From the IMG/VR virus record IMGVR_UViG_3300009593_000152, positions 1 through 21,067 of that record: a DNA stretch of 21,067 nt. The stretch is one strand, 5' to 3'. Positions 8,942-20,966 of this stretch are shown one piece after another. Each line of letters starts with the position of its first letter. Within the stretch, counting starts at the first letter, position 1. The DNA comes from a virus. The notes beneath the pieces are model-generated. The model made no database searches. It saw only the letters and a list, made by a program, of their open reading frames with translations, and was not told the origin of the DNA. Both the position numbers and the translations under genes were made by a program.

Positions 8942-9283
8942 TTACTTTCCTTTTTTAGATTCGTTCAACACCTTTTTATTTATAAAGTCTGGCTGAACAA
9001 TTCCAGATCCAAATTTCTTATTATATGCGTTTAACATATCTTTACCTGGATCATATACTGAAACAATATGAGTTGGAAAGACTGGTACTTTGTGGTCTTT
9101 TGCAAATGGAGCGTAAGGAGCAAGTCCCACGCTAAAATCAGTTTCACTTCCAGGATTTGGCATCATCATTATAATGGCCGGTTTATCTATAACTAGAAAT
9201 CCTCTACCTTCAATCTCCGACTCTGTTACATCACCTATTAGATCCTCACCTGTTGTTAGTTTAACTATTTGAATGTTTGACAT
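8942..9283 (-). CDS. Conserved marine-phage protein, possible Sm-like fold
   Basis: A 113-residue protein starting MSNIQIVKLTTGEDLIGDV, followed by beta-rich segments (FLVIDKPAIIMMMP, SVGLAPYAPF, VPVFPTHIVSVYDP) and a lysine-rich tail. A VKL-x-TGE-x-L-x-GxV opening followed by short strands resembles the first strands of Sm/LSm barrels. I recall that a cyanophage-derived Sm-like protein has been described structurally, but cannot confirm that this is the same family. If so, it might bind RNA. AGGAG lies close before the ATG at 9283. The gene sits between Hsp20 and the nuclease and abuts the latter. Confidence refers to the gene being real; the fold is tentative. Confidence 0.7.
   Translation of the reverse strand: MSNIQIVKLTTGEDLIGDVTESEIEGRGFLVIDKPAIIMMMPNPGSETDFSVGLAPYAPFAKDHKVPVFPTHIVSVYDPGKDMLNAYNKKFGSGIVQPDFINKKVLNESKKGK
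8977..8984 (-). promoter_or_regulatory. Possible T4-late-type box before the nuclease gene
   Basis: TATAAATA on the minus strand, inside codons for FINKK of the Sm-like gene, 36-43 bases upstream of the nuclease ATG. The match is exact, but AT-rich lysine/asparagine codons make a chance hit likely. Confidence 0.3.
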
Positions 9284-9812: not shown

Positions 9813-9820
9813 TATTTATA
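9813..9820 (-). promoter_or_regulatory. T4-late-type promoter for Hsp20
   Basis: Exact TATAAATA on the minus strand, overlapping the stop of the upstream oxygenase gene and opening the 64-base gap before Hsp20. Intergenic placement makes it one of the better late-promoter candidates here. Confidence 0.65.
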
Positions 9821-12195: not shown

Positions 12196-12203
12196 TATTT
12201 ATA
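12196..12203 (-). promoter_or_regulatory. T4-late-type box before regA
   Basis: Exact TATAAATA on the minus strand overlapping the gp62 stop codon, about 45 bases upstream of the regA ATG. It could give late expression of RegA, the radical SAM protein and the oxygenase. Confidence 0.55.
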
Positions 12204-15627: not shown

Positions 15628-16578
15628 TTAAAAGTTTCTTTTCGTCTCTAAAAAATGATTTGTTATTTTTTGAGCCATTGTTTTTTGTTTCATTGCACTA
15701 GGGTGATACAAATCTCTACCCACATCATCTGCTGTTAAATTCGCTGCCACTTTACATTCCATAAAAGGTTTGATTATCATGTCTCTAACTTTTTCTGTCC
15801 TATCATCAAAGGAATCTGATTTTTCAAAATAAGATGCTGAATTGTGTCCAAAAACTTTAATAAAATCTTGTAGTGGATACTCATTATATGTTGCATTTTT
15901 ATCTGGGTGTCCAGTATATAACCATGTTAAAGGAATTGTATTAGTATAACACCAATCTATAATTGTTTTGTACGCTAGTCTGTGTTGACCTACAGAAATC
16001 TTCTGTTCTTCATAGGGTCTTAAAAAGGTAAAAGTATTACCACCTTTTAACATAGAACCAGCATAATCTAAATTTGATATTTGATTAGTATTTGATAACT
16101 TATATGTTCCTGTAAAATTCTCTGCCATTTGTACTATAATTCTACTAGGTTCATTGAACCACCTTTTAGACATCTCCAATATATTATTAAGAATAAACTC
16201 TGGCCTGTCACCATATGTACTCATATTATAAACAGGAATGTCTGCATATTTACTTATAAGATTAGACACCATATCTTTTGTATGAACTCCAGGTGCAATA
16301 CCAGAACAGCCTCCAATAAATAACCACCATCTGTCATGTCCACTTACTTCGTCTATCTCTTTATTGTTTCTAAATCCTAAAGTGTCAAACACATATTCAA
16401 TTGGTTCAACATCTCCACTCCAATACCATTCAGGTCCTTGTACTTGTTTAGCTCTATTAAACCACTGTTCAGACTCATGTAACATCCATTTATATCTTAC
16501 ACCTGACCTAGCTGCAAAAGAAATGCAACCATGTTTTCCTAATACTGTCTGTCTTAAAGGTTGATCTTCTTCATTCAT
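15628..16578 (-). CDS. SGNH/GDSL-hydrolase-like protein
   Basis: A 316-residue protein whose blocks fit an SGNH hydrolase. LFIGGCSG carries the candidate nucleophile S92. VYNMSTYGDRPE gives the block II Gly (G123), and IIVQMAEN corresponds to a later core strand. Near the C-terminus RDLYHPS gives D289-x2-H292, the catalytic Asp/His of block V. SGNH enzymes remove acyl or acetyl groups from lipids or glycans. The N-terminal 80 residues, including a Trp-rich patch (WYWSGD), are unassigned. No signal peptide is seen. The ATG at 16578 overlaps the crotonase stop by 8 bases. Downstream of late boxes, it may act in the virion or on host surface glycans; the substrate is unknown. Confidence 0.65.
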   Translation of the reverse strand: MNEEDQPLRQTVLGKHGCISFAARSGVRYKWMLHESEQWFNRAKQVQGPEWYWSGDVEPIEYVFDTLGFRNNKEIDEVSGHDRWWLFIGGCSGIAPGVHTKDMVSNLISKYADIPVYNMSTYGDRPEFILNNILEMSKRWFNEPSRIIVQMAENFTGTYKLSNTNQISNLDYAGSMLKGGNTFTFLRPYEEQKISVGQHRLAYKTIIDWCYTNTIPLTWLYTGHPDKNATYNEYPLQDFIKVFGHNSASYFEKSDSFDDRTEKVRDMIIKPFMECKVAANLTADDVGRDLYHPSAMKQKTMAQKITNHFLETKRNF

Positions 16579-17323
16579 TCTTAAATACTGGTGGCCTCTT
16601 CTCTAAAAAAGCCTTCATTCCTTCTTCAAAATCCTTTGACTCTTCAGTCATTTCTTTAGCCCATAAAGCATAAGATATTGCTTCATCCATATTAGAATTT
16701 ACTGTATGCCAAATAGCACCTTTAGTTCCTCGAACAGCGAGAGGTCCATTTTCATTAGCAATTTTGTGTGCATAGTCTATTGCCTCTGCTATAGGATCTT
16801 CACAAATCTTATTACATAAACCAACTTTGTCTAGCCATTCTGCATCATGTATATCTCCCATCATGAATTCCATTGTTCTATTATGGCCTATCCTTTGTGT
16901 TAGTTTAACCTGTAGTGTAACAGCATTAACTCCTAATTTAGTTTCAGGACATGCTATTTTTAATGTGTTGTCTACAAATACAAAATCACTTGCTAACATT
17001 ATACCTACACCATCACCAATGCAAGCTCCTTTTATTGCTGATACAATTGGTTTTGGTGTAACCATGTCACCATCTGTGTACATGTTACTCCAGCCTTCTC
17101 TGATGCAAGGGCCAAGCTCGTTGACATCAAAGCCTGCTGTAAAATTGTCTTTGTCTGATTTGATAACGAGGATTCTAGAATCATCCTCTCTAAATTCAAC
17201 GATGGCATCGTTGTATCCTGAGTAATAATCTTGTGTTAAGATATTCATAGGACCTTCACCATGTATTGTCATTATGGCTACATGGCCGTCAATATCGTAA
17301 GTTATTCTCTCGCCGAAGTTCAT
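16571..17323 (-). CDS. Enoyl-CoA hydratase/isomerase (crotonase) family protein
   Basis: A 250-residue crotonase-fold protein. FTAGFDVNEL and IKGACIGDGVGIMLASDF are the two oxyanion-hole segments. PETKLGV retains the Glu equivalent to Glu164 of rat mitochondrial hydratase, while the Glu144 position is Gly (GVGIML), as in isomerases or other family members. The C-terminus DFEEGMKAFLEKRPPVFKN is the usual trimer-forming tail. A 21-codon upstream extension of the frame overlaps the preceding gene; the ATG at 17323 matches the family start and follows that stop by 17 bases, though no clear Shine-Dalgarno site is visible. Such genes are rare in phages. It may act on host acyl-CoA, or be repurposed. 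Confidence 0.88.
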   Translation of the reverse strand: MNFGERITYDIDGHVAIMTIHGEGPMNILTQDYYSGYNDAIVEFREDDSRILVIKSDKDNFTAGFDVNELGPCIREGWSNMYTDGDMVTPKPIVSAIKGACIGDGVGIMLASDFVFVDNTLKIACPETKLGVNAVTLQVKLTQRIGHNRTMEFMMGDIHDAEWLDKVGLCNKICEDPIAEAIDYAHKIANENGPLAVRGTKGAIWHTVNSNMDEAISYALWAKEMTEESKDFEEGMKAFLEKRPPVFKNE

Positions 17324-17340
17324 AATATAATTGTGTTGTT

Positions 17341-17667
17341 TTAGAAGTTTGCTAGTTCTGTCCCATCTGAATCTACAACGACGCAAGTTATTGATGCGTC
17401 AATTAGTGCTTGTTTATAGCTTGCTCTAAGAGCTGTTTCACCTGTCACAGCATCTGAAGCAGCTTTTGCTGTATCATATGTTGCTTTATCTGCTGCTGTG
17501 AAAATAACTCTAGTTACTAAACCATCTACATCATAGGTCTTTGTTACACCATTATCAAAAAAGATGGTGTCATTAGCTGCTTTATTGTCTGAATCAAAGC
17601 TAGTTATAGTAGGTATTGCTGTGCCCTCATTAGGCCTAGTCAATGTCCAAGTTACTGTATATGCCAT
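17341..17667 (-). CDS. Unknown 108-residue protein under tandem late promoters
   Basis: A Thr-, Ala- and Asp-rich protein with predicted beta-strands (AYTVTWTLTRP, TRVIFTA), a helix (residues about 59-90) and a closing strand (ITCVVVDSDG). I recognise no family. Its composition is like small virion or scaffold-type proteins, but no homology supports that. GGAGA lies about 7 bases before the ATG, and two TATAAATA boxes lie 26-42 bases upstream, so strong late expression is likely. It heads the cassette with the crotonase and SGNH genes. Confidence 0.75.
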   Translation of the reverse strand: MAYTVTWTLTRPNEGTAIPTITSFDSDNKAANDTIFFDNGVTKTYDVDGLVTRVIFTAADKATYDTAKAASDAVTGETALRASYKQALIDASITCVVVDSDGTELANF

Positions 17668-17692
17668 TTAATTATCTCCAATTATTGTCTAC

Positions 17693-17709
17693 TATTTATA
17701 TTATTTATA
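17693..17709 (-). promoter_or_regulatory. Tandem T4-late-type TATAAATA boxes
   Basis: Two exact TATAAATA octamers (17709-17702 and 17700-17693) one base apart on the minus strand, at the 3' end of the radical SAM gene and in the gap before the 108-residue gene. Two consensus late boxes in 17 bases, in an intergenic position, are unlikely to be chance. Confidence 0.72.
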
Positions 17710-19264
17710 AGGCCAATTTAGAATTTTTATAGTTTTGGAGGTATTGATTTGTGTCTTTTGTAAGTTTTTCCACATCATAACCCATAATTGTTTGTTCTAA
17801 TACACTATCATATGTGTATGTTCCAGGTGTTATAAAGTTAAACAAGTCCCATGTCATTATCTTATTATCTCTAGGGTCATACAAACCCTGTGCCATTGTT
17901 CTAATTAATTCTAATATAGCTGACTTCCAATTATAAGTATCGTGGCTCCAATGTAAGTTATAGTCTTGTGCATGTAATCGCTTTGCGTAACCTTGTAGCA
18001 TAGGATGTTCTGAGAACTCTTCTAAATCCTCTGGTGTTAGCTCTTCTCTAAGTTCTTCTGGATGGAAGTGGCCTGACTGCCTCCATGTTCTACCAAACTC
18101 TGAAGACGCAAAAATATTTTCATCTAAATGCCTGTTTATATAAAGTGGTTGCATTACTAGATTCTCTGTAGACATGTTATCCTTCCACCATCTTAGGCCG
18201 TCATAGAGGCTCTCTGATGTTTCATATGGTAGTCCTAGTATTAGACTTGCCGTTGCTCTATATCTACCACATTGTTTAATCGTATAGTCTTTTGCTTCTA
18301 GTAAACCTACTTTCAATTCTTCTGGATCGATACCTTTACCTACTGTCCTTCCTGCTTGTTGATTAAAAGTTTCTATGCCATAGTACTGAGCCCAAAATCC
18401 CATCTCTGCTAAGTACTTTTTATCATCCTCTCTTCTTGTAAGTAAGTCTGCCCTAACAAACCCTGTTAGATTAGGCGTAAAAGGTAGTCGTTGTATCTCA
18501 CTACCAGCAAATTTTATTTTCTCTTGATTATCGTTTGTTGTTTCATCTGCTACATGGTAACTCGTTACTCCCCACTTCTCATAATTAGATAACATCTCAT
18601 CATACAAGGTATTCATATCCCTAGTTAAGTCTCCTTTCATACCTATTGCATTGTATGAACAGAACTTACATTTGAATTTACAACCACGGGATAGTTCTAA
18701 GGTTAGAGTATCTGAAGGCTGAATATAATCTCTGTCCTCATACTCAACTACCAAATCCTTACTAGGGAAACAAGGGTGATGCCTATCTGCCATAACAGTT
18801 TTTAATCCTTTATACTCTGTTATAACTGCTTCACCTTTTAAAAGTTTTATTAATCCATACTCTCCATAACCACATACATAATAATCACAAGGTAAAACCA
18901 TTATGTCTACCAGCATCTTTGAACCTGCTATTATTGTAACATCAGGATACTCTTTCTTTAACCATTTAAGATGCTCTTGTGCTCGTTGTAATAGTTGTAG
19001 CTTATATCCAAAGGTAACACTCACACCTATGAACTTTGTATCTTTTGTTACTCTTGAACGGATAAATTGTTTGAACTCTTCTTCTTCAAAGGCCAACCAG
19101 TAATCTAGAACTTCTATATCCCAACCCTCTTTGCGCATGAAGGTAGCGATTTTATGTGCGCCACCTGATCTTTTGAGGTTAACCCAGTTTGGATCTAACG
19201 CTCCTAAAGCGCCTTGCCAACCTGGGTTCTGTTGTAGACAGCCTAATATAATACCTTGGTTCAT
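17705..19264 (-). CDS. Radical SAM protein with B12-binding-like N-terminal domain
   Basis: A 519-residue protein. Residues 1-150 resemble the Rossmann-like B12-binding domain that precedes many radical SAM cores (FIGVSVTFGYKL, VTIIAGSKM, YYVCGYGEYGLIKLL), but the DxHxxG cobalamin motif is not seen. The core has SRGCKFKCKFCSYN (C195-x3-C199-x2-C202), then HVADETTND and a SLILGLPYET strand. The long C-terminal part (from about 380) is unassigned. It uses S-adenosylmethionine and a 4Fe-4S cluster for radical chemistry on an unknown substrate. The Shine-Dalgarno site before the ATG at 19264 is weak. It shares an early transcript with cobS and the DUF3310-like gene. Confidence 0.88.
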   Translation of the reverse strand: MNQGIILGCLQQNPGWQGALGALDPNWVNLKRSGGAHKIATFMRKEGWDIEVLDYWLAFEEEEFKQFIRSRVTKDTKFIGVSVTFGYKLQLLQRAQEHLKWLKKEYPDVTIIAGSKMLVDIMVLPCDYYVCGYGEYGLIKLLKGEAVITEYKGLKTVMADRHHPCFPSKDLVVEYEDRDYIQPSDTLTLELSRGCKFKCKFCSYNAIGMKGDLTRDMNTLYDEMLSNYEKWGVTSYHVADETTNDNQEKIKFAGSEIQRLPFTPNLTGFVRADLLTRREDDKKYLAEMGFWAQYYGIETFNQQAGRTVGKGIDPEELKVGLLEAKDYTIKQCGRYRATASLILGLPYETSESLYDGLRWWKDNMSTENLVMQPLYINRHLDENIFASSEFGRTWRQSGHFHPEELREELTPEDLEEFSEHPMLQGYAKRLHAQDYNLHWSHDTYNWKSAILELIRTMAQGLYDPRDNKIMTWDLFNFITPGTYTYDSVLEQTIMGYDVEKLTKDTNQYLQNYKNSKLAL

Positions 19265-20756: not shown

Positions 20757-20966
20757 TTATATGTCCTCACATTTATTATTTAATATACCGTTATTATGCA
20801 CTCTGGCGAACCAAGAGTCAAGCATTTTATTCACTATTTTTGAAATCTTTTTCTCCCTATAAGGGGCTATGGCAGGGGCTAAATCCAGGGTACCTAGGGT
20901 ACTACCTAGGCCTGCTAGGGCCCTTAGAGGGGTGCTAGTAGAGCCGTTTTTGGTTAGTCTTATCAT
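20757..20966 (-). CDS. Doubtful 69-residue ORF overlapping the cobS promoter
   Basis: An open frame begins at the ATG directly after the upstream gene's TAG stop and runs through the CTAG-rich segment and the whole promoter module. The protein has a repetitive start (ALAGLGSTLGTLDLAP) and a basic middle. No Shine-Dalgarno site is obvious, codon use (CTA, GCC, ACC) is unlike that of the neighbours, and its 3' third is the 55-bp module that lies between genes at the left end. It is more likely non-coding, but a real small gene cannot be excluded. Confidence 0.25.
   Translation of the reverse strand: MIRLTKNGSTSTPLRALAGLGSTLGTLDLAPAIAPYREKKISKIVNKMLDSWFARVHNNGILNNKCEDI
20776..20830 (-). promoter_or_regulatory. 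cobS: Sigma70-type early promoter for cobS, right copy of the 55-bp module
   Basis: TTGACT (20821-20816), 17 bp, then CATAAT (20798-20793) on the minus strand. The site matches 35-89 at 52 of 55 positions and is 21 bases from the cobS ATG at its near edge. It should start the cobS, DUF3310-like and radical SAM transcript early in infection. Confidence 0.82.
20850..20945. other. CTAG-rich, GC-richer non-coding-like segment
   Basis: Against an AT-rich background this stretch is visibly richer in G and C and repeats CTAGG at 20894, 20906 and 20915, with further CTAG at 20935. CCTAGG palindromes at 20893 and 20905 could pair. It lies between the upstream gene's end and the cobS promoter, so it could hold a structured RNA or a termination or binding site. 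Confidence 0.4.

Follow-up and report, generated by a model that had tools for sequence, protein, structure and literature searches.

A crotonase gene paired with a gene for a cysteine-bearing SGNH-fold protein behind a late promoter of uncultured marine T4-like phages

Why should a T4-like phage carry, amid its early replication genes, a crotonase-superfamily enzyme alongside an SGNH-fold protein behind late promoters, and do the two act together? The question is raised by a segment of 21,067 bases from an IMG/VR virus record, the whole stretch of DNA that was analysed, referred to as the window. It belongs to a T4-like phage and has its coding on the minus strand. In sequence searches its gp44 is at most 58% identical to cyanophage and Pelagibacter phage proteins and its gp45 at most 47% identical, to P-SSM2, so that the phage stands outside the cultured groups. 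A cyanophage reading was rejected, a psbA-type gene being absent from 10 related contigs. The initial annotation described two late promoter boxes that head three tightly spaced genes, ending just before the gp45 early promoter, and all of this was confirmed with the following features.

17702-17709 and 17693-17700, minus strand: two T4-type late promoters, TATAAATA, upstream of p108
17341-17667, minus strand: p108, the constant gene of the locus
16571-17323, minus strand: crotonase-superfamily enzyme of 250 aa, with a match to PF00378
16571-16578, minus strand: overlap of 8 nt, ATGAATGA, between crotonase stop and SGNH start
15628-16578, minus strand: SGNH-fold protein of 316 aa, named from its AF2 model and structure matches
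15628-15610, minus strand: weak hairpin at the downstream border, ahead of the gp45 promoter
15611-15583, minus strand: gp45 sigma-70 promoter, TTGACT-N17-TATAAT, an 11/12 match; downstream border

The spacing between p108 and the crotonase gene is 17 nt, counted from the conserved ATG at 17323 and not from the mechanical TTG start at 17386. The window has 6 copies of TATAAATA against a chance mean of 4.0, which is not above chance. The exact 8-mer is found 28-48 nt before the p108 start in every distinct p108 upstream region, often doubled in tandem in related loci, and it is kept even in phages with different upstream and downstream neighbours. In a 170-kb relative, TATAAATA also occurs upstream of the ORFs for tail sheath, tail tube, gp22 and major capsid protein, as named by sequence reading. 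The box thus has the short fixed upstream distance of a T4-type late unit and is common to virion genes, which supports late expression as initially annotated. The gp45 sigma-70 promoter is a strong one and is kept in nearly all relatives, and some relatives have an additional TATAAATA between the SGNH gene and gp45. With late boxes upstream and the hairpin and gp45 promoter downstream, the locus forms a late transcription unit of its own amid early replication genes.

Further copies of TATAAATA in the window (12196-12203, 9813-9820 and 8977-8984, minus strand) lie upstream of the RegA, Hsp20 and nuclease genes, and so the late-type promoters of this clade are not confined to virion genes. Another element of the window is the 25-bp CGCCAGAGTGCATAATAACGGTATA, which is repeated exactly near both ends (43-67 and 20784-20808, minus strand; 0 expected by chance) and resembles a conserved early promoter. 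Its core CATAATAACGGTATATTAAA is present in 31 related loci, in several of them directly upstream of a cobS-like gene.

IMG/VR searches with the crotonase, the SGNH-fold protein and p108 each gave the identical gene order. The cassette of three genes is thus recurrent in uncultured marine T4-like phages, in keeping with the co-occurrence that the initial annotation had proposed to look for. An independent sample was obtained by a scan anchored on gp45, where the best 80 of 149 matches yielded 47 distinct gp45 genotypes with a visible upstream region; being interrelated, these genotypes do not count as independent trials. Both enzyme genes occur in 23 of these 47 and neither in another 23, while the SGNH gene is alone in 1 case and the crotonase gene in none. 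A scan anchored on the crotonase gave no further unpaired crotonase where the downstream gene was visible. In all 13 genotypes inspected the two genes overlap in an ATGA-type context, and the 8-nt overlap suggests that they are translationally coupled. What is linked, then, is the pair of crotonase and SGNH genes, and in connecting an acyl-CoA enzyme with an SGNH-fold enzyme the initial annotation is supported.

This does not extend to p108, which had been considered part of the same system. Together with its late promoter it is found in all 47 genotypes (from the best 80 of 149 gp45 matches), and as half of them have it without the pair, it is placed outside the enzyme unit. Thus, p108 is the constant gene which owns the late promoter; between it and gp45 the enzyme pair is inserted as an accessory. 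From phage to phage the interval from cobS to gp45 differs in content, with radical SAM, ferredoxin, diiron-like and other cargo. An upstream radical SAM/B12 gene is optional, being found in 16 genotypes and missing from 31 (same scan, best 80 of 149 matches). Relatives also differ in the slot between DUF3310 and p108 (window 17705-19264; L081:1051-2115; L107:5627-6496; L029:4973-5296), which, by sequence reading, is filled with radical SAM/B12, a 354-aa diiron-like, a 289-aa metalloprotease-like or a ferredoxin gene, or is empty. In L110, a more distant relative, a desaturase is encoded downstream of RegA, and genes of 215, 282 and 212 aa replace the pair between a p108-like gene and gp45 (L110:10744-11508 and L110:4857-6946). 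Several relatives have, between gp44 and gp62, a 426-aa protein that reads as a copper-dependent monooxygenase (L041:11642-12922).

Sequence searches with p108 in Pfam, PHROGs, NCBIfam and PDB gave nothing convincing. Its AF2 model (pLDDT 96) matches 2od6 with a VIA Z of 9.2, the NIPSNAP protein 1vqy with 8.8, 2op5 within the range of 8.8-9.2, and also uncharacterised phage proteins; p108 is predicted to be a small protein of the dimeric ferredoxin-like (alpha+beta) type. The NIPSNAP/antibiotic-biosynthesis-monooxygenase (ABM) proteins, of which 2od6 and 2op5 are from uncultured marine organisms, resemble this predicted fold at a Z of about 9, but sequence identity is 8% and a match to NIPSNAP/ABM at the sequence level was not found. 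The initial suggestion of a structural protein gains no support from this predicted fold and has late expression as its sole pointer, and the late promoter is indecisive on a virion role because TATAAATA also stands before the genes of Hsp20, a nuclease and RegA.

The crotonase belongs to its superfamily by a match to PF00378 (ECH_1) with 100.7 bits (E=1e-28; Pfam cut-off 27), and PDB matches to solved enoyl-CoA hydratases have E-values down to 2e-20. As the ECH_1 match spans the full length, an assignment as ClpP/prohead protease was ruled out. Neither the oxyanion-hole motif G103-[DE]104-G105 nor Glu127, the equivalent of Glu164, varies across 22 unique relatives. The position equivalent to Glu144 is G, S or N in these relatives, with Gly in the window, and thus one of the two glutamates of enoyl-CoA hydratases is missing. 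A weaker match is to ECH_2 (44.6 bits over 17-132). For the 3-hydroxyisobutyryl-CoA hydrolase type, we take a second catalytic Asp to be expected at +8 from the Glu; this position is an invariant Val in the 22 unique relatives. The protein is far under every NCBIfam cut-off among those listed, and therefore its reaction cannot be named. In named phages, all crotonase matches are less than 30% identical and lie in records which resemble bacterial DNA.

Two deep types of this crotonase exist, with an identity of about 40-47%. Type B forms a clade with support 1.0 which contains the L011-like phages, L035 and L061, and the SGNH proteins of these phages come from three distinct regions of the SGNH tree. 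This implies that the crotonase gene has been swapped while its slot stayed filled. Distances of crotonase and SGNH track each other modestly (Spearman 0.41).

For the SGNH-fold protein, no match was found in Pfam, PHROG or NCBIfam and no convincing one in PDB sequences. Its AF2 model, for which 15 phage sequences were used (pLDDT 82, pTM 0.87), reaches a Z of at least 8 with 175 of 1000 chains and shows the SGNH alpha/beta/alpha fold. The best full-length structural match is the peptide hydrolase CgnD (8a2n; PMC10070186), with a VIA Z of 14.4 over 216 residues, an rmsd of 4.0, model residues 6-311 and 11% identity. Escherichia coli TesA is matched with a VIA Z of 11.7 (161 residues, rmsd 3.2, 14% identity), where model residue 82 corresponds to TesA residue 1 and model residue 311 to residue 176. 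If the short end stretches are free of gaps, Cys91 would fall on Ser10 and Asp289/His292 on Asp154/His157, which we take to be the TesA catalytic triad. All 25 unique sequences, whose identity goes down to about 30%, have Cys91, Asp289 and His292. The latter two form the Block V DxxH in the motif RDLxHP, and the oxyanion-hole residues of Blocks II and III are represented by Gly123 and Asn154, each conserved in 24 of 25. A profile alignment with TesA is non-significant, and the Gly123 and Asn154 columns pair in it. The model and the motif spacing (xxCxGxGPG in the relatives versus GDSxxxG in SGNH enzymes) point to Cys91 as the equivalent of the serine.

The catalytic Ser of Block I (GDS) is thus replaced by Cys91 in 25 of 25 sequences. 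A review of the superfamily describes this Ser as invariant and as the residue on which all members depend (PMC9487903). We therefore use the label SGNH-fold and do not speak of a canonical SGNH hydrolase. Of the initially annotated SGNH-like hydrolase, the fold is retained by structure prediction and the canonical esterase is not; conservation of the SGNH residues, on which that assignment had been made to depend, holds for Gly, Asn, Asp and His and is broken for Ser. Ser92, which would be the nucleophile if GCS in the window were read as GDS-like, was discarded, since nearly all relatives have P, F, I, V or L at this position while Cys91 is invariant. A bacterial origin of the SGNH-fold gene was likewise rejected, as the single match in a scan of 84,980 species genomes was a phage contig in a Flavobacteriales MAG. 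This contig (L117, PCBP01000083.1) is of the same phage type including the cassette and is probably a viral contig in the bin. In named phages no relative of the SGNH-fold protein was found at E up to 10, and none of p108, with a diverged p108 searched at E up to 1.

The median pairwise dN/dS is 0.20 for the crotonase and 0.40 for the SGNH-fold protein, compared to 0.10-0.11 for gp44 and gp45. The pair appears to be functional but fast-evolving, as expected for host- or substrate-matched functions. One phage has the SGNH-fold gene without the crotonase (L040:2318-3298). Here Cys91, Asn154, Asp289 and His292 are kept, whereas Gly123, Arg125 and Gly157 are lost; this single case looks as if the protein had been relaxed after the loss of its partner.

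Gene linkage, promoter, folds, residue conservation and purifying selection were all computed. The reading that we tentatively prefer, and to which we give a chance somewhat short of even, is a cytosolic acyl-CoA pathway of two enzymes that is transcribed late and whose genes were inserted behind p108, a late gene constant in these marine T4-like phages. For the chemistry, substrate, acceptor and benefit of this pathway, we infer the following. The crotonase would bind an acyl- or enoyl-CoA thioester and hold the enolate in its oxyanion hole, with Glu127 as the presumed single acid/base for isomerisation, hydration or a retro-reaction. Its product, or the same CoA ester, would be passed to the translationally coupled partner, where Cys91, activated by His292/Asp289, may attack the thioester. 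The resulting acyl-S-enzyme would be stabilised by Gly123 and Asn154, and its acyl group might then be transferred to an acceptor or be hydrolysed. As the nucleophile is a cysteine, transthioesterification or transfer seems somewhat likelier than hydrolysis.

Two-step cytosolic acyl-CoA chemistry is favoured because of the conserved catalytic residues, the coupling, the pairing and the N-termini, which, read from the sequences, have no apparent signal peptide in either enzyme and so make the cytosol likelier than the surface. Also in its favour are the refilling of the crotonase slot, the TesA alignment, dN/dS and the late promoter. SsfX3, an SGNH-fold acyltransferase (titled salicylyl-acyltransferase) whose acyl donor presumably is a CoA ester, is among the fold matches and counts for the pathway as well. 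Against it stand that the best fold match is a peptide hydrolase, so that peptide substrates are possible, that the crotonase is below the listed NCBIfam cut-offs, and that L040 has the SGNH gene without crotonase. A search of these phages for an acyl carrier protein gave none. A narrower proposal, that the proteins are phage-confined SGNH-fold acyltransferases with a Cys nucleophile, fed by their own crotonase, and that late in infection they use acyl-CoA to acylate a molecule of the phage or the host, is unlikely as a whole.

It would be a thioesterase route if the crotonase shaped a CoA ester which the SGNH-fold protein hydrolyses, so that CoA and a fatty or short acid are freed late, with energy, membrane remodelling or CoA recycling as the proposed benefit. 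Among the matched families, that of the acyl-CoA thioesterase TesA comes second to CgnD, and two fatty-acid desaturases (PF00487) are found in the 170-kb relative (L118:9765-10319; L119:13035-13589, G001:C1:33035-33589), but none was found in the other cassette-bearing contigs searched, which are mostly fragments. According to PMC6642262, Cys in place of Ser generally breaks engineered hydrolases. A purely hydrolytic role therefore leaves the invariant Cys unexplained, and we consider this route rather unlikely. That two unrelated auxiliary metabolic genes were captured as an operon in a common late slot next to gp45, with no joint reaction, would agree with the variable cobS-gp45 interval and with a Spearman value of only 0.41. 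It is improbable in view of the near-perfect pairing, with no crotonase alone among the genotypes from the best 80 of 149 gp45 matches, the conserved overlap and the second crotonase type that has come to occupy the slot.

The CgnD match (Z 14.4, model 6-311) brings up a peptide- or amide-bond enzyme acting on a peptide or protein, for which the crotonase makes or modifies an acyl cap. Cysteine is a good nucleophile for amide bonds. However, the nucleophile of CgnD is Ser, identity is 11%, and the locus yielded no precursor peptide, with p108 as a possible candidate; we regard this as quite improbable. The removal or transfer of acyl groups on glycans of the virion or cell surface, as initially annotated, has the least support and is very doubtful. 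Carbohydrate esterases are among the SGNH fold matches, and bacterial SGNH proteins act as surface acyltransferases (PMC9487903, PMC12148441). However, neither enzyme N-terminus resembles a signal peptide, the unit has no glycosyl gene, and the viral SGNH esterases matched by fold often form part of large tail or spike proteins, while the protein here is small, separate and beside replication genes.

Within the reach of our search, which included few subscription papers, neither a natural Cys-type SGNH enzyme nor a phage crotonase or crotonase-SGNH pair was found in the literature. The initial annotation knew of no described phage system with this set, and searches of named phages gave no relatives beyond distant crotonases of bacterial type. 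Both folds are already known, and what appears to be new, as far as found, is the pairing of a crotonase with a Cys-type SGNH-fold protein in phages. An SGNH lineage that naturally has only Cys, invariant to about 30% identity, would be a model for the conversion of this fold from hydrolysis to transfer; in contrast, engineered Ser-to-Cys exchanges in hydrolase triads generally destroy activity (PMC6642262). For phage biology, the locus adds a late acyl-CoA cassette, of which no description was found, to uncultured marine T4-like phages; its companion p108 is constant, being present in every genotype sampled (best 80 of 149 gp45 matches).

Of the named phages, the nearest to this clade are the Pelagibacter phages HTVC008M and Mosig and the Prochlorococcus phage P-SSM2, which are T4-like and have the cobS-gp45-gp44 core in common with the window phage, and HTVC008M and P-SSM2 also a DUF3310-like protein at the locus. 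The corresponding interval of the three phages has no homologue of p108, crotonase or SGNH-fold protein. With the PF00378 enoyl-CoA hydratase/isomerase family, the phage crotonase shares the fold family, the oxyanion-hole motif and the Glu164 equivalent (E127); it differs by Gly at the Glu144 position, by an acidic residue in G-[DE]-G and in reaching no subfamily cut-off. SsfX3 and the OatA/PatB-type acyltransferases have the SGNH fold and transfer acyl groups instead of hydrolysing, but they use a Ser nucleophile where the phage protein has Cys91, and OatA and PatB act outside the membrane with a membrane partner. We know of no such acyltransferase that is coupled to a crotonase. CgnD, from crocagin biosynthesis, likewise has a Ser nucleophile and is a peptide-releasing hydrolase of a RiPP pathway. 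E. coli TesA (thioesterase I/lysophospholipase L1) shares with the phage protein the fold, the triad positions, the Block II Gly and the Block III Asn, but it is periplasmic and has Ser10, whereas the phage protein has Cys91 and about 80 extra N-terminal residues.
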